From a virus: DNA of 36,789 bases. Positions 14,601-36,500 of this stretch are shown one piece after another (the first letter of the stretch is position 1; each line of letters begins with the position of its first letter). The notes under the pieces are model-generated. The model was given only the letters and a program-made list of their open reading frames with translations, was not told where the DNA came from and did not search any database. Made by a program: the position numbers and the translations under genes. The stretch lies in IMG/VR virus record IMGVR_UViG_3300035703_000230, positions 1 through 36,789 of that record; one strand, given 5' to 3'.

Positions 14601-15634
14601 GCGGGAATGTCTTTACCGACGCAAATTATGGTTACGGACTGGTTGGTGTATATACATCAACTCGGTATCAGGGCGTGTTCGCCATGGGCGACTCGTACAA
14701 GCTCCCTGCTGACGGTTCAGGCACTGGTTCGCTATACGGAATCGCGTGGTCGCATCCGAACGCGGGCGGCATAGCTGGGAACCTGAACACGCACGGCGCG
14801 CTGATCATGGAGAACGGCACGTTCTTGGCGGCATTGTCAGGCTCAATCAGAAGTCGTGACGACATGCGTACGCCGATTTTCTATGACAACAACAACACCG
14901 GTTACTACCTGAACCCAGATGGTGGAAGCTACTTATACAGCCTGACCTTGGCTGGCGGGGCGTACTTCCGACCTTCGACTTGGATTCAGATGGATGGGTC
15001 ATACGGAATGTATTGGCCCAATCACTATGGTGTGCATTTTTATCCGAACGCTAGCTCCACGTACACGCAGCTGCAAATAGACGGTAGCAAAAATTCGTAC
15101 AGCGGCATGTACATCTCCCACAGCGCCGTAAACGGGATGATGTACGACTCCGGCGGTAACGGCGGCGTATATCGCGAGGCGAATGGGCGCTGGTACTTTT
15201 ATTACCTTGTCGGTAATAACTGTATGGGTATCAACACCTCGACAACCTCGTCCTCGTATGGGCTTTACGTATCGGGCGGTGTCTATTCGACTGGCAACGT
15301 GGTCGCGTACTCGGACGCTCGACGCAAGACGAACGTTGTCACCGTTGGTGGCGCGCTTGACAAGGTGGCACAGCTGCGAGGCGTGTACTACACCCGCATT
15401 CCCGGCGAGGAAGACGAAAAGACAGACCCGAATCGCCGCGAGATTGGCGTGATCGCGCAGGAGGTCAACGAGATCCTGCCCGAGGTCGTCACGTATGCAG
15501 CGGACATCGACGAGTACGGTGTGCAGTACGGCAACTTTGCCGGTCTGTTCATTGAGGCGATCAAGGAATTGAAGTCACAGGTGGCTACGCTGAGCGCGGA
15601 AGTCGCTGAGCTTCGAGGGAGGTCAGTGCATTGA
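11663..15634 (+). CDS. Tail fibre/spike with C-terminal S74 intramolecular chaperone
   Basis: A 1323-residue receptor-binding fibre. The N-terminus (MASITTRTGKGSPLTNAEVD then SNFTELNTELGLKE) is a common fibre head. The shaft has repeated elements: YALPLSGGTITG-type motifs (three or more), TSSxLSxYLTS strands, and three FYDSNNTAYYTDPA-like modules near residues 862-882, 892-912 and 1070-1090, all typical of trimeric beta-helical fibres. The C-terminal 107 residues are the endosialidase-type chaperone (Peptidase S74). SDARRK gives the Ser1217/Lys1222 pair expected for self-cleavage just before S1217, followed by GVIAQEVNEILPEVV and a terminal coiled coil. The chaperone trimerises the fibre and is then shed. 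The gene has lower GC in the shaft than its neighbours, suggesting exchange of host-range modules. Confidence 0.93.
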   Translation: MASITTRTGKGSPLTNAEVDSNFTELNTELGLKEVAANKGVAGGYASLDSSGKVPSAQLPSYVDDVVEGANLAAFPGSGETGKIYVALDTNKTYRWSGSAYVEISASPGSTDAVTEGSTNLYFTNTRTRAALSASGSLSYNSTTGVFSYTQPTNVSAFTNDSGYITSSALSPYLTSSTAASTYQTTLVSGTSIKTVNGQSVLGSGNIQIDGGVTSFNTRTGAVTLSSGDVTTALGYTPYNSSNPSGYITSSSLSSYLSLTGGTMSGGITGIAPSVQSAITGVVAGNAAFRTSETNVGTTAGYIPAIGQTSVYTSGYRSHMVLGSYRTASGWGGGPFLAWGGSDSNATEAWVFNTGGSITHTGGRTFLDSSNYSSYALPLSGGTITGTALQVGTAFAYDNPGGWNANIVAAGSTHARFRLRATSFSGSGDRETYLWLDNSVSPATGLYSNASTFNFNGSIGTVQVAGNTVLHAGNYTSYSPSLTGSGASGTWGISITGYANSLNNYYTADDWLRAVGDAYQFKIYGNTRSVIFRTDGVSNPYGGGADYAFNWFYGGGAAGNRIMLLQTDGNLWTNAYGWLHDGFVRTTNNSSLNSDSRNSRGVTRLYRRDDNSDYSVQTYWTGSRWYLAGYAGDGFHAGCEVEYAASAGTASTANSIDGWGFVNTGSNTSVNADNIDSNGISYYTAGVPNFSGNSTDGALYSQAYSGSWQHQIAGDYRSGQIALRGKNSGTWQAWRTVLDSGNYSSYALPLSGGTMSGPIRRSAHAQGFLEGSYNNVGGNASNTNPIYTIGSAYNPTDSSLANMYGIGFSHPNLWGGGNRTDDWGLYVVAAGTVMATIGAGSRTAWFANQVFADGSFRSPIFYDSNNTAYYTDPASTSRVNEVQSDRTYGFTDIRSPIYYDYNNTGYYVDPAATTSLRTVGDWRADSSGWTGEFAGKIQYHSSNWYFQYAGSALFRNSGGSNVTSIDSAGNLTASGNIRSGGNVFTDANYGYGLVGVYTSTRYQGVFAMGDSYKLPADGSGTGSLYGIAWSHPNAGGIAGNLNTHGALIMENGTFLAALSGSIRSRDDMRTPIFYDNNNTGYYLNPDGGSYLYSLTLAGGAYFRPSTWIQMDGSYGMYWPNHYGVHFYPNASSTYTQLQIDGSKNSYSGMYISHSAVNGMMYDSGGNGGVYREANGRWYFYYLVGNNCMGINTSTTSSSYGLYVSGGVYSTGNVVAYSDARRKTNVVTVGGALDKVAQLRGVYYTRIPGEEDEKTDPNRREIGVIAQEVNEILPEVVTYAADIDEYGVQYGNFAGLFIEAIKELKSQVATLSAEVAELRGRSVH

Positions 15635-15981
15635 GCATCTCGTACCACTTTGCAATTAGGCAGACGAACCAGACGAATGTCGGGTCACTGTCAGGCGTGG
15701 TGACGCACATCCACTTTGACTACGTCGGCACAAGCCCAAGTGGGCGCGTGGTGAGCTGTCAGGGCGTCGTGCCGTTCACAGTCGCCGACAGGACAATCGA
15801 CACGGCTGAGGGAGAGAAGGTTATTAAGGGTGACCTCGATCCGAATAGCTTTATCCCTGCGCCAGAGGTGACAGAGGCGGTTCTGCTGTCGTGGCTCGAA
15901 GAGCGAGTCCCGGCTGCCACGATTCAGCTTTTTCAGAAACACATATCCGAGCGCATTGCGCAGATGGAGGAAGTTCAGTGA
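15631..15981 (+). CDS. Fibre-adjacent small protein, paralogue 1 of 3
   Basis: A 116-residue protein with a TTG start (15631) that overlaps the fibre stop; the strong GGGAGG at 15617-15622 supports that start. It opens MSISYHFAIRQ, has VVTHIHFDYVGTSPSGRVVS and ends with FIPAPEVTEAVLLSWLEERV and IQLFQKHISERIAQMEE. It shares its layout with the next two genes: M-S/A-x-S/T-Y-x-aromatic start, a beta core, a F-x-P-x-x-x-L/V-T-E-x-V-L-x-W-I/L segment, and a final amphipathic helix. The role is unknown; a fibre assembly chaperone or fibre-attached protein is a reasonable guess from position. Confidence 0.8.
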   Translation: MSISYHFAIRQTNQTNVGSLSGVVTHIHFDYVGTSPSGRVVSCQGVVPFTVADRTIDTAEGEKVIKGDLDPNSFIPAPEVTEAVLLSWLEERVPAATIQLFQKHISERIAQMEEVQ

Positions 15982-16352
15982 GCATGACTTACACGTGGAA
16001 AGTGACCGGCATCAAGGTGCGAGACGAGGTGAACGCGCAGGGCGTGACCTTGCCTCAGGCTGTATGCCAGACGTACTGGGTGAAGACTGGTGTGGATGCG
16101 AACGGCAACGAAGGCTCCTTCGCGGGAGCGACCCCGTTCACCGCGCAGACCGTACCGGCGGATCAGTTCGTGCCTTTCGACCAGCTGACCGAGGAGGTTG
16201 TCCTTAACTGGATTAAGGCTGTTGTCGTCGGTCACTACGAACAGCACGTGAACAATGCGATTGCAGAGAGCATTCGCATCAAGACGGTGACCGAGCCTGC
16301 TTTGCCGTGGGCGCCGCCTCCGAGTGAGCCCGCCACGCCGCCTGCCGCTTAA
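15978..16352 (+). CDS. Fibre-adjacent small protein, paralogue 2 of 3
   Basis: A 124-residue protein. I chose GTG 15978 because it overlaps the previous stop (GTGA), lies seven bases after GGAGG at 15966-15970, and gives MSMTYTW, matching MSISYHF of the neighbour; ATG 15984 is the alternative. It contains VTGIKVRDEVNAQGVTLPQA and an acidic G-rich loop with NGNEGSFAGATPFTAQTVPA. The paralogue signature FVPFDQLTEEVVLNWIKAVV and a helix with HYEQHVNNAIAESI follow, and a Pro-rich end starts LPWAPPPSEP. This is the best conserved-looking member of the trio and resembles small proteins found after fibre genes in T7-like phages. Function unknown. Confidence 0.82.
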   Translation: MSMTYTWKVTGIKVRDEVNAQGVTLPQAVCQTYWVKTGVDANGNEGSFAGATPFTAQTVPADQFVPFDQLTEEVVLNWIKAVVVGHYEQHVNNAIAESIRIKTVTEPALPWAPPPSEPATPPAA

Positions 16353-16364
16353 TCGGAGCTGCGC

Positions 16365-16685
16365 ATGGCTGTCACATACACGTACGCCATCAACGGGCTG
16401 CGCGTCGCCTCACAGGGCGCGCTGTCCGATGTCGTGCGCGAGATCGATGTGAACGTATGGGGCGCTGATGGCGTCGTGGAGTTCCACCTGCCTGTCCTCG
16501 TCCGGCTGCCCGATGCGATCCCGGGCGCTTTTACACCGTATGAGTCGCTGTCGCGCGAGCAGGTGGTCGCGTGGATCGACGAAAGCCGGTCAACGACTCA
16601 CGCGAAAGGTCATATCGCCAACGTGATTGCCCGGATGATCGAGGAGGCTGCAATGCAGACCAAGCCAATCCCGTGGGCGCAGTAA
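16365..16685 (+). CDS. Fibre-adjacent small protein, paralogue 3 of 3
   Basis: A 106-residue protein beginning MAVTYTYAINGLRVASQGAL, with SDVVREIDVNVWGADGVVEF, the shared segment FTPYESLSREQVVAWIDESR, a last helix GHIANVIARMIEEA and a terminal KPIPWAQ that corresponds to PALPWAP in paralogue 2. CGGAG at 16354-16358 precedes the ATG. Three related genes side by side imply tandem duplication and divergence, perhaps each serving a different fibre or tip protein. Confidence 0.8.
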   Translation: MAVTYTYAINGLRVASQGALSDVVREIDVNVWGADGVVEFHLPVLVRLPDAIPGAFTPYESLSREQVVAWIDESRSTTHAKGHIANVIARMIEEAAMQTKPIPWAQ

Positions 16686-16688
16686 GCC

Positions 16689-17624
16689 ATGCCATTACAG
16701 TCGTCTGGCGAAATCAGCATGTCGCAGATCAACGCGGAGTTTGGTCGCGGCAATGACTTGAACTCGTATCGCGGGACATCACACGCCAGCGGTACATTCC
16801 CAAGCGGTGCGATTGCGTTCAGTGATTTCTATGGCAAAAGCGTCCCGCCGTCAGGCGGCACGTTTACCCCAGACGGCAGCACGTCGTCCAGCAGCCGGAC
16901 CGTGCTCACTGATTTTTACTCCGGAGAGACAGGCGGCGCAGCGGGACGTTCTATTTCGTGCAGTCAGCCCGCTTCATGGACATGGACCAGAGTCTCTGGC
17001 TCATTTGGTGCCGGTCAGGTTGACGGAAGCACTCTGGTCGCGTCTGGTAGCGCGACAGGGACCACGGCAAACTTTTTTCTTTCCGCAGGGTTTAACACCT
17101 ATCGAGCTGCCGAGTTCGAGGTCAACGCGACGTCGGGTAGCAACACCCGGTATTGGCGAGTTGTTCTTGAAGCCGAGCACTCATCGTGCCCGTTCTGTTG
17201 CTTCACGCCCGACACCCTAATCCTTATGGGCGACGGCTCGCTCAGGGCGATCGGAGAGGTTCAGGTCGGCGACTTCATTCTCACGTACAGCGAGGAGCTG
17301 AAGACCAATGTCGCCGTGCCGGTAACTGAGGTCATCGTCCGCACCGACCGCCCGATGTACCAGTACACCTTCGAGGACGGCTCTACGCTCAAGGCGTCAG
17401 AGGAGCACCCGCTGTACATCCTCGGCAAGGGTTATGCGTCCCTCGTCCCGGTACCCGAGTACAAGGACATGGGTCTCGCGAAGGTCGTCGAGCTTGGGGA
17501 CAGCGTCGTGAACGAGCTCGGCAGCCCGAAGAAGATCGTGAAGATCGAGCGCATCGTGTATCCGGGCGCCGTGTATACGTTCGGCAACACCCGGTTCTAC
17601 GCGAACCACGTTCTCGTCTACTAA
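16689..17624 (+). CDS. Virion structural protein with C-terminal Hint (hedgehog/intein) domain
   Basis: A 311-residue fusion. Residues 1-55 are the common phage motif with IS.SQI..EFG, LNSYRGT and GAIAFSDFYGKS, found at the start of many tail-tip proteins. Residues 56-165 are a beta-rich, Ser/Gly/Thr-rich domain. Residues 171-311 are a Hint fold: block A CFTPDTLILMGDGSLRAIGE with candidate nucleophile C171, then VQVGDFIL; block B DGSTLKASEEHPLYIL with S237 and H240 at the T-x-x-H positions; and block F VYTFGNTRFYANHVLVY at the very end. There is no C-terminal Asn and no C-extein, so splicing is not possible, but N-S acyl shift and cleavage or thioester transfer before C171 is. C167 and C170 precede it in SSCPFCCF. 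The start follows the previous stop by three bases. Confidence 0.85.
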   Translation: MPLQSSGEISMSQINAEFGRGNDLNSYRGTSHASGTFPSGAIAFSDFYGKSVPPSGGTFTPDGSTSSSSRTVLTDFYSGETGGAAGRSISCSQPASWTWTRVSGSFGAGQVDGSTLVASGSATGTTANFFLSAGFNTYRAAEFEVNATSGSNTRYWRVVLEAEHSSCPFCCFTPDTLILMGDGSLRAIGEVQVGDFILTYSEELKTNVAVPVTEVIVRTDRPMYQYTFEDGSTLKASEEHPLYILGKGYASLVPVPEYKDMGLAKVVELGDSVVNELGSPKKIVKIERIVYPGAVYTFGNTRFYANHVLVY

Positions 17625-17710: not shown

Positions 17711-17872
17711 GTGAGTACTCTGAAATTTGAGGTGTCGGTGGAGGAGGGCAACCTGCTGGTTGCCGCCCTTGCTAAGCAGCCCTTCGAGGCTGTGGCGGGT
17801 CTGATTCAAAAGTTGCAGCAGCAAGCTGCCCAGCAGCTTCAGCCGCCGCCTGAGGCGCCGAAAGCCGACTAA
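17711..17872 (+). CDS. Small phage protein (53 aa) in its own transcription unit
   Basis: GTG start with AGGAGGT at 17700-17706, one of the strongest ribosome binding sites in the window. The product begins MSTLKFEVSVEEGNLLVAAL, continues AKQPFEAVAGLIQKLQQQAA and ends in a Pro/Glu tail (QLQPPPEAPKAD). The FEVSVEEGNLL...AL.K.PF..V..LI..LQ.QA pattern recurs in small proteins of many short-tailed phages; function unknown. A beta strand followed by two helices is likely. A promoter-like pair lies upstream and a good terminator follows, so it seems able to be expressed alone. The opposite-strand ORF here is a shadow. Confidence 0.8.
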   Translation: MSTLKFEVSVEEGNLLVAALAKQPFEAVAGLIQKLQQQAAQQLQPPPEAPKAD

Positions 17873-17878
17873 ACCTGA

Positions 17879-17904
17879 GCCCCGCCCTGCGCGGGGCTTC
17901 TTCT
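17879..17904 (+). terminator. Rho-independent terminator
   Basis: GCCCCGC (17879-17885) and GCGGGGC (17891-17897) form a perfect 7-bp stem with a five-base loop CCTGC, followed by TTCTTCT. It lies six bases after the stop of the 53-residue gene and ahead of the next operon start at 17920. Confidence 0.85.
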
Positions 17905-24300: not shown

Positions 24301-24457
24301 ACAAAACTACGCAGAGCTTCGCCGTAAAGAGTACCCGGCAATAGGAGATCAGCTCGACGCTCTGTGGAAGGGCGGCGAGGCGCTCGAAGCCATGCGCCAG
24401 CAGATTGTGGCGGTGAAGGAGAAATACAAAAAGCCGAAGGAGGTTCCCAGTGAATGA
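24284..24457 (+). CDS. Small phage protein of the YAELRRKEYPxIGDQLDALWKG family (57 aa)
   Basis: A 57-residue protein with a GTG start at 24284 and GGAGG (24273-24277) six bases upstream. The product MKLKVKQNYAELRRKEYPAI then GDQLDALWKGGEALEAMRQQ and IVAVKEKYKKP is a widespread short phage protein pattern, encoded near the ends of tail modules. Its biochemical function is not known to me. It overlaps the preceding gene by 17 bases and the following gene by eight bases. Confidence 0.85.
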   Translation: MKLKVKQNYAELRRKEYPAIGDQLDALWKGGEALEAMRQQIVAVKEKYKKPKEVPSE

Positions 24458-25058
24458 TCTGATGGCAGCGTTGCAGCGAAACTTGGGTAACACCCTGACG
24501 CCCGAGCTTGCCTCCGGGCTTTACATGGCGGCGCAAGAGCAGCCTACGCCGATCGACCTCCACAGTATCCCAAAGGATACACACTGGGGTTACTCGCTCG
24601 CCGTTGAGCGCATAGAAGATTGCGTCGACGAGATTAAGCCGCTGCATGCCGCACACTGGGAAGAGACTGAATCCTATCGACACAGCTTGCCGCTGAACGT
24701 CGATTACGAATACATGATCAACGCGGAGCGTGCAGGGCGGTTCGTGCTCTTCACACTTCGCGGACCCGACCACGAACTGGTCGGCAACTGCATGATGTAC
24801 CTGACTCGCTCAACGCACACCCGGCAGTGGATCGCGGAGGAAGACACGATCTTCATTCGCAGGGACCACCGCAAGGGGCGCCTTGGCATCAAGCTCATTC
24901 GCTATGTCGAGACGGTCCTGAACGCGCTCGGTATCACCGAGATCCGCGTGACCGTTAAGACGGTGAATCGCGCCGGTGAACTATTGCAGGCGCTCGGGTA
25001 CCAACACACAGCCAATCAACTTACGAAGGTTCTTGTAGGAGAAGCCCATGTGCAGTGA
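24450..25058 (+). CDS. GNAT-like acyltransferase fold protein in the virion module
   Basis: A 202-residue protein with a GTG start (24450) six bases after GGAGG at 24439-24443. From about residue 50 it follows the Gcn5-related acetyltransferase layout: an alpha start (RIEDCVDEIKPLHAAHWEET), strands FVLFTLRGPDHELVGNCMMY, then motif A DTIFIRRDHRKGRLGIKLIR with R-K-G-R-L-G as the acetyl-CoA loop, and ITEIRVTVKTVNRAGELLQA as motif B. Similar proteins lie next to internal virion protein genes in several podoviruses. Whether it acetylates a host or phage protein or keeps only the fold cannot be told. A His/Tyr near YQHTA is the candidate acid. Confidence 0.75.
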   Translation: MNDLMAALQRNLGNTLTPELASGLYMAAQEQPTPIDLHSIPKDTHWGYSLAVERIEDCVDEIKPLHAAHWEETESYRHSLPLNVDYEYMINAERAGRFVLFTLRGPDHELVGNCMMYLTRSTHTRQWIAEEDTIFIRRDHRKGRLGIKLIRYVETVLNALGITEIRVTVKTVNRAGELLQALGYQHTANQLTKVLVGEAHVQ

Positions 25059-26343
25059 CGCACCGAAGCCGCCTGATATGCGCCCGATAGCTGACGCCAT
25101 GCGTCAGATCGGCTCACAGATGGAAGCCCTTGGGCGCGACCAGTTACGTTTCGGACAGCGCCGCTACGAAGAGACGATGCCTTTCTACCAGCAGATGGTG
25201 CAGGCAAATCTCGAAGGGCAGCGGATGTCCATGCGTCTTGCTCGCGACGCCGAGATGGATCGTCAGAAGTTCCGCGCCCTCGAAGACCAGATGGTCTCGG
25301 AGGCGATGAATCAAGACAGAACAGCTGTTCGCAATCAGTACGCCGGTCGCGCCGCCTCTGACGTTGAGCAGGCTACCGCAGCTGCGCGCTCAGTCGCTGC
25401 GCGCAATTTGTCTCGCATGGGCATCAACCCGAACGCCGCGCGGTTCGCAGACCTGAACAACCAGATTACATTGGGCACGGCGGCGACTCGCGCAGGCGCG
25501 ATGAACAATGCCCGCATGGCTGCCGATCAGGTGGTCGATGCGAAGCGCATGAACGCGATCAGCCTCGGTCGTAACTTGCCTGCTACTCAGCTCAGTGCGA
25601 TTGGCACGGGCTCGTCTGTTGGCAACAGCAACGCCGGTCTGTTCAACGCGCAGAACGCACCAATGTTTGCTGGCTATCAGGGCGCCATGGGCGGCTTGCA
25701 GGGCGCGCTCGGTGCGCAGTCGGGTATCGCTAATGTGATGAACATGGGATACCAGAACGAGCTCGCAGCTTCGCAGGCTGGTGGCGCTGCCATGCAGGGT
25801 CTCGGCTCACTTGTTGGTGCGGGTCTCTCGTTTATGTCCTCGCGCGACATGAAGGAAGACAAGACTCCGGTGAAGAGCGGCTCTGCGCTCGATGCAGTGC
25901 GCGACATGCCCGTTGAGACTTGGAAGTACAAGGGCGACAACCGCGAACATGTGGGTACCTACGCAGAAGATTTCAAGCGTGAAACCGGAATGGGCGACGG
26001 TCGCACTATCTCCGTGCAGGACGCCCTCGGCGTCACCATGGCAGCGATTAAGGACCTCGATGCGAAGGTCGAGCGCATGGGTGGCAAGAAGATGGCTGAC
26101 GGCGGCTCTGTGCGTGGTGGGAAGAACCACAGCAAGAAGGGCGGGAAGATTACGGGTCCCGGCACTGGCACCTCGGACAGCGTTCAGGCAATGAACCGCG
26201 ACACCGGTCAGCCGATCCTACTCTCGAACGGAGAGTACATCCTGCCGGCTGACACGGTTCGTAAGGTGGGCAAGGAAGCGCTCGATGACCTCGTCGAGAA
26301 AACGCACAAGCCCGTCCGCAACTCAGCGATTCGGAGATCCTAA
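25048..26343 (+). CDS. Putative internal virion protein with an S74-like domain
   Basis: A 431-residue protein. Residues 1-120 are a charged helical region (SQMEALGRDQLRFGQRRYEE); 120-250 are Ala/Gly/Asn/Met-rich with QNAPMFAGYQGAMGGLQGAL and look membrane-active or flexible. From 264 SSRDMKED there is an S74/endosialidase-chaperone-like domain: ALDAVRDMPVETWKYKGDNR, HVGTYAEDF, ISVQDALGVTMAAIKDLDAK. S264 and K269 keep the S-x4-K spacing, but the usual D and R between them are changed. The end, about 350-431, has KKMADGGSVRGG and the common phage segment GPGTGTSDSVQAM, SNGEYILPADTVRKVG. Location before the giant polyvalent gene suggests an ejection protein. AGGAG at 25037-25041 supports the ATG; it overlaps the previous gene by 11 bases. 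Confidence 0.75.
   Translation: MCSDAPKPPDMRPIADAMRQIGSQMEALGRDQLRFGQRRYEETMPFYQQMVQANLEGQRMSMRLARDAEMDRQKFRALEDQMVSEAMNQDRTAVRNQYAGRAASDVEQATAAARSVAARNLSRMGINPNAARFADLNNQITLGTAATRAGAMNNARMAADQVVDAKRMNAISLGRNLPATQLSAIGTGSSVGNSNAGLFNAQNAPMFAGYQGAMGGLQGALGAQSGIANVMNMGYQNELAASQAGGAAMQGLGSLVGAGLSFMSSRDMKEDKTPVKSGSALDAVRDMPVETWKYKGDNREHVGTYAEDFKRETGMGDGRTISVQDALGVTMAAIKDLDAKVERMGGKKMADGGSVRGGKNHSKKGGKITGPGTGTSDSVQAMNRDTGQPILLSNGEYILPADTVRKVGKEALDDLVEKTHKPVRNSAIRRS
25319..25330. repeat. Recurrent palindrome AACAGCTGTT (12-bp palindromic copy here)
   Basis: GAACAGCTGTTC at this site is a 12-bp palindrome. The 10-bp core AACAGCTGTT also occurs exactly at 18938-18947, 21118-21127, 29009-29018 and 29189-29198. 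The 8-bp core ACAGCTGT is present at ten places found by eye: those five plus 8456, 10486, 28314, 30773 and 36347. In the five exact 10-bp copies the codon phase is the same (ACA GCT GTT, Thr-Ala-Val). Confidence 0.6.
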
Positions 26344-27590: not shown

Positions 27591-30500
27591 ATGGGTCTTT
27601 TGAATGCCTACCGAGATGTCACTGGAGATCCGTATTCCGGAACCGGAGAAGCGACCGAGAAGAACCGCGAGCGCGCAGCTGTTATTGAACAGAAGTCTGT
27701 GCGTGGCGGATTGCTTGGAGCGTATGACGACGTCCTGACGCAGCCGGCGAAATCTTTGCCCGCTCCAGACCCACTCGCGCGTCCGCAGGCAATACCGACA
27801 GACAAGGAATCGCGTCGACTGGAATACGGTGCCGGCGAGTTTGCCGAGGACGCCGGTCGTAAGGCGACTGGCGCATTGGTTGGCGGCACGCTCTCCATGC
27901 CCGCTGGCGCCGAGGCTGGCATCAAGGGCGCTATCCGTCGCGGCATTACGGGCGAGTCTCAGCCGGTGGCTGCTGGCGCTTTGCTGCAGAAGGCAAGCGA
28001 CTGGCTCATGGACGCCACGGGATTCATGTCGTACGCCGAGCAGGCGGAGAACCGCGAGAAAGCAGCGGTCGCATTTGACCGCCTAGTTTCTGGGGTGAAG
28101 ATCCCCGGGGCGGAAGGGCTTGCTGAGTACGGCTCACGGGTGCAGCGCGATATCGAGTCGGGCATCTCGGAGGCTGGCAAGCAGCGCCTCGAAGGTGCGA
28201 CCCCGCGCGGCAACATCCTCAAGGGCGAGTTCAGCTTTGGCGACGATCCGACCGTGTCCGGCTACCTCTTACAGGCAGCCGGCGTATTGGGCTCGCTCGC
28301 GCCCACTGTGGCGACAGCTGTCATTACCCGCAGCCCAACAGCGGCAATGGCTGTTGGCGGCACACAGGCGGCTGGAGAGGCTGCTAGCACGGCACGCGAG
28401 TACGTCGGCAACCTGTCCGACGAGCAGCTCACCGAGGTCAGCCCGTACTACAACACCTTGTTGCGTAACGGCGTGTCCACCGAGGAAGCCCGCCAGATCG
28501 TCACGGACAAGGCGGCAGAGACCGGCGCTTTACTGCAGGGCATGGTGGCAGCCCTTGGCTCCCGGGTTACCGGCAAGCTGCTAAACGGCGCCTACGACGA
28601 CATCCTGCGCCGCGTGGGTGGCAACCGAGCTGGCGCTACTGCCGCCGGCGCTGCTTTTGGCGCAACCGAGGAAGGTCTGCAGGAAACCGCTGAGGGTATC
28701 GCCTCTGACGTGGGCATCCGCTCGCAGATCACGAATAAAGAAATCGGCGAAGGCTCGGCTGCCAACTTGGTGCTAGGCGCACTGGGCGGCGCGCCGGTCG
28801 GCGCTATCAGCGGCGCAAAGTCCACGCCGGAAAGCGCCCTCGACGCTTACCTCAAGCGCGCGATCGACGGTTCTCGGGTTAATCAGGAATCCGTTGACCG
28901 ACAGGTCCGGGCAGCGCTCGACCCGAATCGCGATGTTGCACTTGACCCGCTGGAAAATATCCGCCCTGCGGACAGCGAGCTGGGTGACGTTGCTGTTCAA
29001 ACGCCGGGAACAGCTGTTGGCGTTCAACAAGACCGACCCGAACAGACTCCTGCTACGGCACAGGCTCAAAATCTGAGCCTGCCAGATACCCCGGAAAACA
29101 GCGCTGCAGTCAATCCTATAGACGCGGCACTTAGTCAGTCTGAAGACCAGTTTGTCGCTGAACTTGAAGCCAAACAGGCTGCTCAGGCAACAGCTGTTGA
29201 ACAGCCGCCTGAGGATAGCTTTACGGCTGCCGTGGCTAGCATGAAACAGGACCTCGGCTTAGACGAAGCTGACACCCTGAATCTTGGGTTGGTCACGACT
29301 GATACTCGCCTGAACCGTTTCAAGGGCGCGCTCGAATCCGCCTTCGGTGTGAAGGTCCACTTCGTCGACTTCGGCGAACAGTTGTCGACCGATACCGGCA
29401 AGCAGCTCGGTGCGTTCAGTGGTTACCGTTCTGGCGACACGATCCTTGTTAGTGCCAAGGACGTCGACTTGCTCGACACCACATGGCACGAACTGACCCA
29501 CGTACTGGAGACCCGGCATGCCGATGTCTACCAGACTCTGCGGGACACCGTGGTTCCCGCCATGGACGCCACGATCCGCCAGACGCTGATCGACAATCTG
29601 AACCAGCGCCGTCGTGCCGAGGTCGGTCGTGACATGACCCAGCGCGAGCTCGACTCGGAGCTCGTTGCGTACGTCGTGGGTGATCTCGTCCGCAACCCGC
29701 AGACGCTTGGTCAGATGTTCGATAGCTTCGAGAACCCCGAGGTCGCCAAGACTTTCCGCGACGTTCTCGCCGATGTGCTGCAGAAGATGTTGGCGGTCAT
29801 CAAGGGTCCGCAGTACATCAAGGAACGCGCACGACTGGTGGAAGCACAGAAGGCGGTGACGGCTGCGTTTGCTGAGTATCAAAAGCGTGAGACTCAGAAG
29901 CGCATGGCAGCCCCGGCACAGCCTGCTGCAGCGCCAGCCACTACAATGCCGCCTGCGCTCGCACAGAAAGTAGCGGTCGCCAACACGCCCAAGCCGCGGC
30001 TGAGGAACCCGTTCTTAGATCAGGACCCTGAAGCTACCCCAGCATCTCAGCAAGCCGCCCCTGTTGCCGCTGCGCCAACAGCTGCCCCGGTTGCGCAAGA
30101 CGCTTCTGCGGCTCCTGCAGCGCCCGCAACAGCACCCGGACAGCAGTCACAAACTGATACACCGCCCTCGACCGCCACAGAGCCTGCCGATGAAGCCGAC
30201 GCCTACAAGCGCGTTGGCGGTCAGTTCAACCGCGATATTCAGAAACGCGGCAAGCTCGCGTCTGACACGTTCAAGCAGGCGCTCGATCAAGATCCGCAGG
30301 GCATGGTCGATGAATACCTGCGTCGCTTTGGTCGCGAGGTGAACGCCGATCACGCACGTGAGCTGTCGCCGATCTACGTGGAGAACCCTGCGGTCTATGC
30401 CGCCTATGTCCACGAAGGCGCATCACGTCTGTCCAAGATGGTGTTCGACTACGTCCTTACTAACGCGGAGCAGGGCGACATCGTTCGCTTCACGGCTGGC

Positions 30501-33500
30501 GGCGGCGGATCAGGTAAGGGATTTGCGGTTAAGCAGCTCAACCTGCGATCGCCGAACGTCATTCTGTACGACGGCACACTTAGCAAACTTGATACCGCGA
30601 CTTCTTTGATTAACAAGTCGCTCGCGTCAGGACTGCCGACCGAGGTTTACTACATCAACTCGGACGCCATGGACTCGCTTGGTCGTGCCATGAAGCGTGC
30701 TGAGCGCGTAGGTCGTACGGTACCAATCGAGGTATTGGCTGAGGCTCACGACGGAGCATCTAACGTAGCGCGACAGCTGTTGACGCTGTTTGCAAACGTG
30801 CCTCTCCGCATCGTGAACAACGGAAAAAATGGTGTGGCGTACGGCTCCATCAATGATTTACCGCGGTATAATGTCGCCGACCTGAAGGAGAAGATGTATG
30901 CGGGACTCAACCGCAGAGTCAAAGAAGATGGATACCCAATCAACCTCGCAATCGGCTTCGCGCCAGATCGGTATTCTGGAGAAGCTGTCGAAGAGCAGCC
31001 CGCAGAACGAGACGATCGACCAGTTCGAGCAGCGTCAAGACGTGGAGTTGCTGGCGCGCCGTCAGCAGTTCGCGAACAGCTCGACCAACCCGCTGCAGCG
31101 CCTGTTGAAGAACCGGTAACGGTTTCTGTTTCGCCAGAGACAATACCGGCTGACACGAAGACACAGCAGACGACGTCCGCTCGTCGCACCAAGAAACCCG
31201 CAGAACCCGCTACACCGCCGAAGCCGCCGATCGACAGCGCCGTTGCGCAGTCCGTTGCGCGCTCACTCGGTCTGACCGACGAAGAGCTGCGCTCCACCTC
31301 GCTCGGTTATCAAACCGGCAAGTCCGGTGGCGATCAGTTCAATACGCCGCGACTGGGCGACCTGAAGGAGACCGTGCTCGGCATTGAGCGCGCTCGTCGG
31401 TTCAGTGGACTGCGCCAGCTCAGCATCGACAACGAGACGGATCAGGACGTCATTGCCAAGCTGATTGCCGCCGAGGCGTTGGCTGCGATCCGCGCTGGTC
31501 AAAGCGCGCAGGAGTGGTACGACTCCACGATTGCTCGCCTCATGGGCATGGCTGCGCTGAAGTATCCGGAGCTAGCGGACAACCGCGAGTCGCAGATGGC
31601 GTTCCGCCTTGCGATCGCCGTGTCGTCGCAGGGGCTGAACGTCGAGGACAACCTGACATTCGCTCTGCCCGTGTACGAGTACTACCGCGAGAACGGCGAG
31701 TTCCCTGAGCGCGGCTCGGGTGAAAGCTCCGCCGCCATGGCGAAGAACTTCCGCCTTGCCAACGAGCTGATGAGCGAGATGGGCAAGGACATGTTCATGC
31801 GCTTCCTTGAGACCCCGTTCACCGCCGGTGAGCTGAAGTCGATGGGATACAACGTCGACGAACTGGTCGACGAGAACGTGCTCGGTTCGTCCGTGTTCGG
31901 TCCGAAGATTGGCTTCGGGTTCTACTCGAACCTGTCCGGCAACTTTGAGCCGGTGACGATCGACATGTGGTTCATGCGAACCATTGGTCGCTTGACTGGA
32001 AAGCTGCGCGCGTTCGACGCCGAGAAGTTTGCCGGTCAGATCGCTCGCTTCCGTGCGTCGTTTGCACTCACGGGTGACAACGGTCTGTTCGCCAGCACAC
32101 GCAAGGCTGACGGCACCCAGATGTTCGACCCGGAGCTGGTAGCTCAGGCTGCCACGGACGACGAGTCGGCGATCGCGCTGGCACGTCTGGTCTCCCGGGC
32201 GCACGAGAAGGACTTCAAGGACAACCGCGAAGCCTTCGACAATCAGACCCGCGAGAAGAGCGAAATGGTGCTCGCCGCAGACACCATGATTCAGTCGCTC
32301 GATAAGCCGAAGGACGCGCCGGGTAACGGCACCGAGCGTCGCAACCTGCGCCAGATTGTTCGCAAGGCAGTCACGCTGGTGGAGGGCGTACACGGTAAGC
32401 GTGTGCCGCCTGCCGCTCTGCAGGCGCTCATTTGGTACCCTGAGCAGGAGCTGTACAAGTCGTTCGGCGTGAGGCTGCGGGTTACCAGCCAAGACTACGC
32501 GGGTGCTATCCGCAAGATTCTGGAGAAGGAGGGTTACAGTGGACGAGAACTCAGCGCAGCAGCCGAATCTGGATCAAGACGCCTACAGTCGCTGGCTGCA
32601 GAACCTCAGCAACGAGAAGATCAAGCAGCTGGCGAAACGGACCGCCGAGTTCGTGCGCTTGAGGGAGCAGAACGCGAAGTCTTCGTTGAGCGAAAACAAG
32701 ACGAGTTCGTCCTAAGACAGGAGCGCAAGAAGCCGCGCCGCAAGCGCGTCGTCTTCGAGGTCGCACCGGACCCCAACAACGAACAGCTGGTCGCAGCATG
32801 GCGTGAGCTGTCTCCTGAGCGCCGCGCGGAAATCAGTAACAAGATCGCCCGCCCGCTGATGAAGCGCATCGGCGACTTGTTTGAAACCCGTGTCCGCTTG
32901 TCCACTCAGGTGGGCAGCTATCTCGACGATACGAACCCCTCGTTCGCCATGCTGGTGGACTCAGGTGACGTGGTCGAGATCGCGAAGACCGCTGGCTTCG
33001 TTCTGTCGCAAGACAGCATGATTGCCTTCTCACCCAAGCCTTTTAAGGGCGGGGCAGAGACCGGTGCCGTCACGATCGACGTGGGCGACATCAATGCCAC
33101 ACAGGTGGACGAGATCTACCAGAAGCTGCGCCAGATCCGTGTCGGTGGCGAGCAGGTGGTTGGTGGGCAGTCGACTTTCAACGGTCAAATGGTCGTCCTC
33201 AACTACTCGAACGTAGACACCGAGACGCTTGCCAGCCTAATAAACACCCAACTGCAGAACGACTACGTAGTGCGAACCGCCGAGGTTTATACTGCGTTCC
33301 CAGAGAAACAGGAGTACGACTATGCCAGTCCAGAGAATGACCCCCGAGGAAAAGCAAAGGATCTTCGGGAACGGGGTCGTGCTCTTCGGGCAGAAGCCTC
33401 AGCCCTCCTCGCAGCCGAGCTCGGAATCGAAGACGCAGGAGACGTCCGAGCAGAGCCCGAGTCAGTCGGGCAATTCAGCCGAAGAGACGTTGAGCTAGCT

Positions 33501-36500
33501 GCCAACCAAGATCCTCGCGCGCCGAAACTTTTCGGCATCAGCGAGAACCCCTCCGTACTGCGCGCTGTCGGCGCGCCAGACCAGCTGCTCGTCATCGAGC
33601 CGCGCACAGTCGTCAAGGTCGTAAACCCCGAGTTCGTTGGTAAGTCTGCGAGCGCAGATGCTGTGCGCCGTACTGCGACTGGGCTTGTTGTACCGGCTGC
33701 CCCTCGCATTGCGCTGACCGTCGACGAGCTGCGCTCTGTGCCGCAGATGATCGCCGACCCGGTCGCTGTAATACGCAGTGAGGGCGGCACCATGACGCGC
33801 CGTTACGGCTACAAGGTCGTGCTCGACATGGTGAAGGACGGTAACCCCGTGGTCGCCATTGTCCACCCGGACGTGCGTTACGGAGGCGACAGGGCGTCCG
33901 AGATCGCCAGCGTGTATCCGGTGAACGAGCCGAACTCGCTGACCGAGATCAACCGGGAGCTGAATAGCAGCAACCTGTTGTACTTCAACAAGGGTAAGGC
34001 GGTTGCATTGTCAGGGAAGATCAAGGGCGGGTTACCCAGCCTTGCCAAGGTCGCCCCGACGACCGCGAAGAACCCGGGCTCAGTACCGAATCGCGCGTTC
34101 ACGCCGCTGCGTAACAGCAACTTCTCCCGCCGTGTGCCGATCCCCGGTCAGCGCTTTACGCTGCCGGCTCGTACGCTGCGCGAGAAGTACTTCGAGAACC
34201 TGTTCGAGAACCGCATGTCGCGCGTCGAAGACGTGCAACAGGCTGTTGAACAGCAGGGCGGTACGCTCGACATCCGTGATGCACAGGGCAATGTTATTGG
34301 CACCACTGATATCGCAAGCGCAAGCCAGCGTATGCGTGGCGCGGTGCGCGGTCGTCTCGATCGCTTCAAGAAGGAAGTCGAGATCCCGCTGATTGAGAAG
34401 GCGGCGAAGCTGGGCGTGAACCTCGACGAGGTCGCTCAGTACCTGTACGCGGTATACGCCCCGGAGCGTAACGCAATCATTCAGCAGCGCAACCCGACAC
34501 AGTTCGGCACTGACGGCGGCTCGGGCATGACCAACGTCGAAGCCATGCAGATCGTGGGCACCTTCCGTGCGCGCAGGGACTTCCCGCAGATCGCGCAGAT
34601 CGCGAGGGAGTTCCAGCGCATTACGCAGATGACGCAGAACGTCCTGCTTAGCGAAGGACTGGTTGAGCCGGCGGTCATTGCGCAGTGGAAGAAGGACAAC
34701 CCGAACTACGTCCCGCTTCGCGGCTTTGAGAACTTTGACGAAGCCACCGGTCAGTCCCTTGGCGTCGGATCGCCGGGACGAACCGACCCGCGAAACCCGT
34801 TCGTGAAGGTAGCCAAGGGTCGAGAGACCCGCGCCGGTCAGATCCTTGAGAACATCCTGAAGGACTACTCGGATGCCATCGTGCTCGCCGAGAAGAACAA
34901 GGTCTACCGCCTGCTCCTGCAGTTTGTCCGCGAAAACCCGGACCAAGAGCTGTGGCAGGTCAACGCACCTAAGGTCTCGCGCTCGTACTACAAGGGCGGC
35001 ATGTCCCCGCTTGGCTACGCGCAAGGAACCGTGCGTGTCGCCTTCGAGGTCAACGAGGACCCGAGCGAGACGATCGCAGTGCGTGTGCAGGGTAAGCCCG
35101 TGTTCATCCGCGTGAAAGACCCGGGCATGCTCGAAGACCTGCAAATGGCAGGCGCGATCGGCAGCGGCGATCAAGCGAAGCTGTACTTCCGCGTGTGGTC
35201 TGGCGTTATGCAGACGCTCGCGAAGCTACGTACCACTCTCTCGCCGGCGTTCGTGTTCATCGACGCTATTCGCAACACCGAGACTGGCGGCTTCTGGAAC
35301 TTGGTGAAGTATGGTCCGAAGACCGCAGCCAAAGCGTATGCACGTCTGTACAAAGCAGCGCGCGTGGCATGGAAGGCTGAGCGAGACGGCACGTGGCAGG
35401 GCAACAACGACACGATCACGATCCGTGAGCCGGGTCAGCCTGCGCGCACTGTCACGCTGAAGGAAGCCTACGACATGTACCGCGCTGATGGCGGCAAGGT
35501 CGGCTACCTCGACATCAAGGAAATCGAAGACATCCAGCAAGACATACAGCAGCGCTTCCGTGCTGCTCAGGCGTCTGGCTCACTTGATCCGCGCACCTAC
35601 GGCACACAGATGCTTGGCGTGGTGAACAAGGTCGAAGACCTGATGCTCGATGCCGCTGGCTCGATCGAAACCTCCATGCGATTCGCGACGTACTTAGCTC
35701 GCCTCGAAGCCGGCGCAAACCGGCAGGACGCGACCAACGCCGCAAAGAACGTGACGGTGAACTTCGATCGCAAGGGCAAGTGGACCCCACACCTTGGGCT
35801 GCTCTACATGTTTGCCAACGCGAACATTCAGGGTACCCGCGCGACGTACAACCTGATCTTCAAGTCAGGCAAAGCTGGCGCAATGCTCGGCGGTTCATTG
35901 ATTGCACTGGGCTATGCGATTGCGCAACTCGGCGCCGCCGACAGTGGGGATGACGACGAGCCTTACTGGGACAAGAAGCTATACAAGCAGGCAAAGATTA
36001 AGAACCTGCTGTTCTTCACCGAGGACGGAGACACCATCACCATCCCGATGGCGTACGGCTCTGGCTTCTTCGTGAACATCGGTTACGCGCTCAGCGACCT
36101 GCAGCGTGGGGTGCCGTTGGCGAAGGTTGGTGCTTTCATGCGCGACTCCTTCTTCACGCACTTCTCGCCGTTCGGTTCACTAGAGAACCCGGCGACGTTT
36201 GCGGCACCGACCTTGCTCGATCCGATCTTGGTCAGCGCTTCGAACATGACAGAGCAGGGTATCCCACTGATGCCGGACTCGGTGTACGAACCGAACAAGC
36301 CGGACAGCGAGAAGTTCTGGACGGCAACTCGCGGAACAATGTTCCAACAGCTGTCGCAAGCCATGAACGAGGCTACTGGCGGTACGCCGGCGTACTCGGG
36401 CGCCATCGACGTGTCGCCTGAAACGCTGCGCTACTGGTTCGGCTTTATGACCGGCGGTGCTGGCGGCTTCGCGCGCGACGCAGCTGACTCTGTGATGCTC

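Follow-up and report, generated by a model that had tools for sequence, protein, structure and literature searches.

Hint proteins, which include inteins, bacterial intein-like (BIL) domains and Hedgehog proteins, share a first chemical step, an N–S acyl shift at Cys1 that is aided by a TxxH motif and, in inteins, is assisted by the Asp of block F (PMC10663303). Hedgehog uses this first step only, passing its N-terminal domain to cholesterol, and BILs mostly cleave (PMC7664689). Among the latter, BIL2 from the BUBL1 locus of Tetrahymena passes a ubiquitin-like domain to lysine without ATP (PMC8616854), and B-type BILs, which have the intein motifs minus the usual C-terminal motif, are expected to undergo N-terminal cleavage (PMC7765530). 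Control of the first step has also been described: in the MoaA intein of Pyrococcus abyssi a native disulfide between Cys-3 and Cys1 controls activity and, as in an engineered DnaE redox trap (3nzm), pairing of the N-flank Cys with Cys1 blocks that step (PMC3922620). In this report, we focus on a gene of a tailed phage represented by an IMG/VR record alone (the window, i.e. the whole stretch of 36,789 nucleotides that was analysed), the product of which ends in such a domain and is a putative virion tail protein by virtue of gene position and relatives. Phages with Hint-ended tail proteins may thus process components of their own tails, by cleavage or by chemical attachment. If active, the domain would represent protein self-processing of the Hedgehog/BIL kind performed by phages on host-contact proteins, and thereby a new route to the maturation or covalent attachment of tail components. 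For protein chemistry, it would be a small natural N-terminal thioester domain that comes with its own Cys switch. An odd single gene also becomes a family with clear testable residues, namely C171, S237, H240, C167, C170 and Y311. The features of the gene are as follows.

16689..17624, plus strand: Hint-ended tail-region gene, with an ATG start, 311 codons for amino acids and a TAA stop (from ORF and sequence)
16689..16850, plus strand: anchor-like N-terminal module, residues 1-54 (SSGxISMSQINAEFG...FYGK), modelled with low confidence
16857..17180, plus strand: β-rich variable middle domain, residues 57-164, model pLDDT mostly 65-90
17187..17198, plus strand: CPFC motif, residues 167-170, positions -4 to -1 relative to Cys1, delineated by conservation and by an identity jump at codon 166
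17199..17621, plus strand: Hint domain, residues 171-311, delineated by profile, fold and structure matches
17199..17201, plus strand: C171, the predicted Cys1 nucleophile, invariant
17397..17408, plus strand: block B S-E-E-H, residues 237-240, with S237 and H240 invariant
17619..17621, plus strand: terminal Tyr311, invariant, placed by structural alignment just before the intein Asn position

The gene sits within a structural block that also encodes a terminase, a head-tail adaptor/portal-type protein, a major head protein, a tail fibre ending in an S74 domain, three DUF7936 proteins, a DUF5754 protein, an internal virion protein (phrog_511) and a tail tip protein. The nearest named relatives of single proteins, which are Rhizobium phage RHph_TM3_14A for the head protein (51% identity) and Burkholderia phage BcepIL02-type and Vibrio phages for the internal virion protein (30-33%), indicate that the virion is probably short-tailed.

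The earlier note had read the end of this protein as a near-complete Hint domain, and this holds: C167, C170, C171, S237-E-E-H240 and VYTFGNTRFYANHVLVY are all in place, and the domain is in fact complete, spanning residues 171-311. The profile search that the note had suggested gives a match above the cut-off to NCBIfam TIGR01445 (intein_Nterm; 30.4 bits versus 24.5, residues 171-243), alongside a Pfam Hint match under the gathering score (E = 4e-5) and Hom_end_hint and PT-HINT matches that are both below the cut-off. When a family profile built from eleven members was compared with solved structures, it matched BIL2 (E 1e-12), a BIL from C. thermocellum (3e-9) and the gp41-1 intein (4e-7). 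The same eleven-member alignment yielded an AlphaFold2 model of the Hint domain with a pLDDT of 93.5, the full-length model being weak (65.9). The horseshoe fold, whose absence would have spoken against the assignment, is present, with Z scores of 15-22 against BIL, intein and Hedgehog structures; in the Foldseek and VIA-align rankings BIL2 comes top (E 1.7e-11, Z 22.3), ahead of inteins, a second BIL and Hedgehog. The N-terminal nucleophile and block B T/S-x-x-H typical of the Hint superfamily correspond to C171 and to S237 and H240, respectively. As a side observation, the Ataxin-1/HBP1 AXH domain also matches the phage Hint family (17184-17621; PDB profile E 4e-5), and Pfam AXH is just over the cut-off for L096 (E 5e-8), which suggests that AXH and Hint may be related.

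Comparison with known systems highlights similarities and differences. BIL2 (PDB 6y75, 6tmm) is the best structural match, with an rmsd of 1.9 over 141 aligned residues, and Cys1 and the C-terminal region are in register. However, BIL2 possesses a terminal Asn143 and a ubiquitin-like C-flank, whereas the phage domain, which is only 25% identical, ends at a Tyr with nothing after it. Compared by the published definition of B-type BILs alone (PMC7765530), the phage domain shows blocks A and B and an altered block G, with the block F Asp also missing; the conserved C-terminal His-Asn of A-type BILs is absent. Unlike B-type BILs, which lie inside bacterial proteins and have C-flanks, the phage domain is at the end of tail proteins, is preceded by CPxC and has a fixed Tyr. 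The Hint domain of Hedgehog (Hog, 1at0; Z 16.7) is likewise C-terminal, and the first acyl shift alone modifies and releases the Hedgehog N-terminal domain, but it is followed by a sterol-recognition region, whereas no acceptor-binding region, sterol-type or other, follows the phage domain, the chain of which stops at Y311. The PT-HINT domains of polymorphic toxins precede a toxin payload, whereas nothing follows the phage domain, the sequence of which weakly resembles those of RHS and toxin-type HINT proteins. Finally, the 3nzm redox trap aligns with a Z of 15.2, but the phage cysteines are found at -4 and -1 rather than -3, and a disulfide between any of them and Cys1 is putative.

Which residues are retained, and which are lost, was assessed in 26 loci from IMG/VR and GTDB genome scans, which provided 19 distinct Hint sequences (12 clusters at 85% identity) diverging down to 36% identity. 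Ten IMG/VR loci encode relatives of the 311-residue protein, eight of them full length and 71-90% identical. Residues invariant in the 19 distinct sequences include C170, C171, F172, T173, P174, S237, H240, P241 and Y311, and every chain ends at the same alignment column, in VLVY-stop or a close variant. The residues used for the last steps by inteins (the Asp of block F, the penultimate His and the terminal Asn) are missing from the family, and block B carries a Ser rather than a Thr. This agrees with the claim in the earlier note that there is neither a C-terminal Asn nor an extein. Y311 aligns with BIL2 position 142, immediately before terminal Asn143 (an Ala in the crystal), and the phage chain therefore stops a single residue ahead of the Asn that cyclises in inteins. 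There is no His-Asn followed by a Cys/Ser/Thr extein residue across the family, no intein-type His-Asn read-through in the 60 bases 3' of the stop in the window gene and 18 relatives, and no insertion between two exteins, the 141-residue domain being at the extreme C terminus. An ordinary intein in this gene is ruled out by the lack of extein, His-Asn and read-through. Similarly, a search of the whole window record with the family profile for a split C-part found a single copy, in the ORF itself. Across Hint sequences, dN is 0.003-0.33 and dS 0.02-2.2. Comparisons with a reliable dS (0.11-1.0) give a dN/dS of about 0.1-0.3; because dS values above 1 are saturated, the ratio is only indicative, but it points to purifying selection.

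The conserved unit is larger than the Hint domain. It starts approximately five residues before C171, rather than at C171 itself, as shown by C170, which never varies, and by C167, which is present in 17 of the 19 distinct sequences. In L096 and L099, the Cys at -4 is absent and a CEYCC motif stands a few residues upstream instead. Of the two roles that the earlier note had offered for C167 and C170, alternate nucleophiles now appear less apt, and a disulfide or metal site is favoured, with the MoaA intein as a precedent (PMC3922620). By analogy, the CPxC motif beside Cys1 may gate the first step through a disulfide or a metal.

The next finding is that this module, together with the preceding CPxC motif, terminates phage proteins with unrelated N-terminal parts, including those of the window type. 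In L087 it ends a siphophage tail-tip protein (phrog_2048), the gene of which is 3' of those for the tape measure and distal tail proteins and 5' of a tail fibre gene; in L096 and L099 it ends a subtilase (Pfam S8, E 1e-24); in L090 and L094 it ends β-rich proteins whose neighbours are collagen-like or S74-like fibres; and in L114 it ends a glycine-rich tail protein. Two records carry two Hint copies each, and N-terminal parts of the L101 type are found in three loci only. Conversely, L010 encodes a window-type N-terminal part in the same gene order without Hint, and the module formed by residues 1-54 is common to many Hint-less phage proteins (L010, L041-L065). Comparison of the window gene with L008 at the DNA level reveals an identity of approximately 44% immediately ahead of codon 166, which rises to 89-100% at that codon and beyond, with 51% in the middle domain, 96% in the Hint part and 98% in the downstream flank, while GC3 is 0.87 in the Hint part versus 0.61 in the remainder of the gene. 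The module is therefore exchanged as a unit between tail proteins, with CPxC as its left edge. Two further arrangements were seen: in the subtilase genes (L096:4384-6426 and L099:4381-6426), a phage Peptidase_S8 protein has a region rich in cysteines and ends in a Hint domain of the same kind, which joins a protease to a putative self-processing domain, and in L076:1020-5642 (DUF4815) and L066:4776-5651 Hint lies near the C terminus after GCGSGCFTPDTL or GGCDCFTPDTL and is followed by approximately 80 more residues.

We lean towards the view that these domains are phage-borne, N-terminal-only acyl-transfer modules akin to Hedgehog and B-type BILs, with catalysis and its product being predictions. 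In the folded domain, H240 and S237 would strain the C170-C171 peptide bond, and attack by C171 would generate a thioester between the upstream tail domain and the Hint domain, a step that CPxC might gate by disulfide or metal. Splicing would be blocked without block F Asp, terminal His-Asn and extein, and the thioester could be resolved by water, by a thiol, or by an amine or hydroxyl group on a second molecule, so that the tail domain would be either released or attached via its carboxyl end (...CPFC). Since the first-step residues are kept, the last-step ones are lost and there is no extein, N-side chemistry would be the only plausible route. The earlier note had proposed that a thioester serves to release or attach the N-terminal part, during tail assembly or at the host surface; the fold, the C-terminal place on a tail-region protein and the lack of an intein C terminus stand, and they limit the predicted chemistry to the N side. 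Given the reducing conditions of the cytoplasm, release or transfer during tail assembly appears more probable than host attachment. A more elaborate possibility, to which we give little credence, is a transferable redox-gated module on diverse phage tails, in which the cysteine cluster would be an off-switch until a change in redox state, whereupon the thioester would move the tail domain to a lysine or sugar, either on the host surface or on a different tail protein, i.e. ATP-free covalent joining of a virion part.

An active acyl-transfer module is favoured by invariance of Cys1, S-x-x-H and terminal Tyr down to 36% identity, by a fold closest to BILs, by low dN/dS, and by the swapping of a unit that is C-terminal on unrelated tail-type proteins. 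The lack of an acceptor-binding region after the domain counts against it, as does the absence of C167 from its usual position in L096 and L099. The missing block F Asp and the Thr-to-Ser change in block B weaken the case for the predicted activity, judged from sequence, but do not remove it. These losses, with those of the penultimate His and terminal Asn, are what might be expected if the Hint domain were a stable C-terminal tail domain without chemistry, the cysteines of which make inter-subunit disulfides or bind metal. The domain could be retained for structure alone, as the fold by itself is a compact β domain with a cysteine cluster at its junction, but a pure scaffold has no need of an invariant Cys1 and S-x-x-H at 36% identity, or of a fixed chain end, and we consider this unlikely.

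Less probable still is that the domain acts as a self-removing C-terminal chaperone or cap, with a role like that of Peptidase_S74, which would aid folding or assembly and then be cut off by thioester hydrolysis. This would be a sub-case of acyl transfer with water as the acceptor, and it would fit the C-terminal place, the exchange among tail proteins and the proximity to S74-ended fibres in the window, L004, L094 and, by family matches, PSTNGR1. The Hint-ended protein itself has no S74 match, although the upstream fibre does. However, Hint domains have, to our knowledge, no chaperone role, and a chaperone may be superfluous for some members, such as the protease and the tail tip protein. That the domain is the decaying remnant of an intein, inserted near the C terminus of a tail gene and having lost its C-extein, would explain the clear intein homology, but it is hard to reconcile with the same end and residues on unrelated proteins, low dN/dS, two copies within single phages and the failure to find an intact extein-bearing relative in the family, which makes it very improbable.

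Among described phages, the sole homologue at E < 1e-5 is QPB11246.1, a 317-residue protein of the isolated Providencia phage PSTNGR1 (30% identity over 78%, E 4e-6), weaker matches being mostly enzyme inteins; queries with L076, L090 and L101 found nothing closer. The PSTNGR1 gene is directly 3' of a tail fibre gene, the C-terminal part of whose product matches long-tail-fibre families. Its product has Cys1 and S-x-x-H, a longer C terminus, and residues 1-52 that match phrog_26817. A scan of genome contigs identified one Hint-module locus, in a Desulfuromonadales MAG; 136 genomes from the same order yielded no others, and plasmid matches are distant and mostly toxin-type HINTs. The notion that a Hint domain at the end of a tail protein is unusual has to be tempered, because BFVD already contains uncultured-phage Hint proteins, some of which bear names that refer to fibronectin or collagen domains. 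Inteins in phage enzymes are likewise well known, and in the library that we searched, the literature on Hint domains in the tails, virions or fibres of phages comprised enzyme inteins and no paper describing a Hint-ended tail protein. The group is distinguished by its CPxC-Cys1 junction, by a terminal Tyr that is fixed and by exchange among unrelated tail proteins.

Several other features of the window are worth recording. Three tandem DUF7936 paralogues (15631-15981, 15891-16352 and 16365-16685) lie between the S74 fibre gene and the Hint gene, and one to three of them are retained at the same place in close relatives. Just 3' of the Hint gene there is a small unnamed gene with a GTG start and a good ribosome-binding site (17711-17872), followed by a terminator-like hairpin (17877-17899). 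The right arm (29259-35174) contains minus-strand ORFs, five of which were tested and have no PHROG match, three of them also lacking a Pfam match. The tail gene block includes a GNAT acetyltransferase gene (24450-25058), and a second S74-containing structural protein is encoded at 25048-26343, in which the S74 domain spans residues 264-310 and is followed by further residues.
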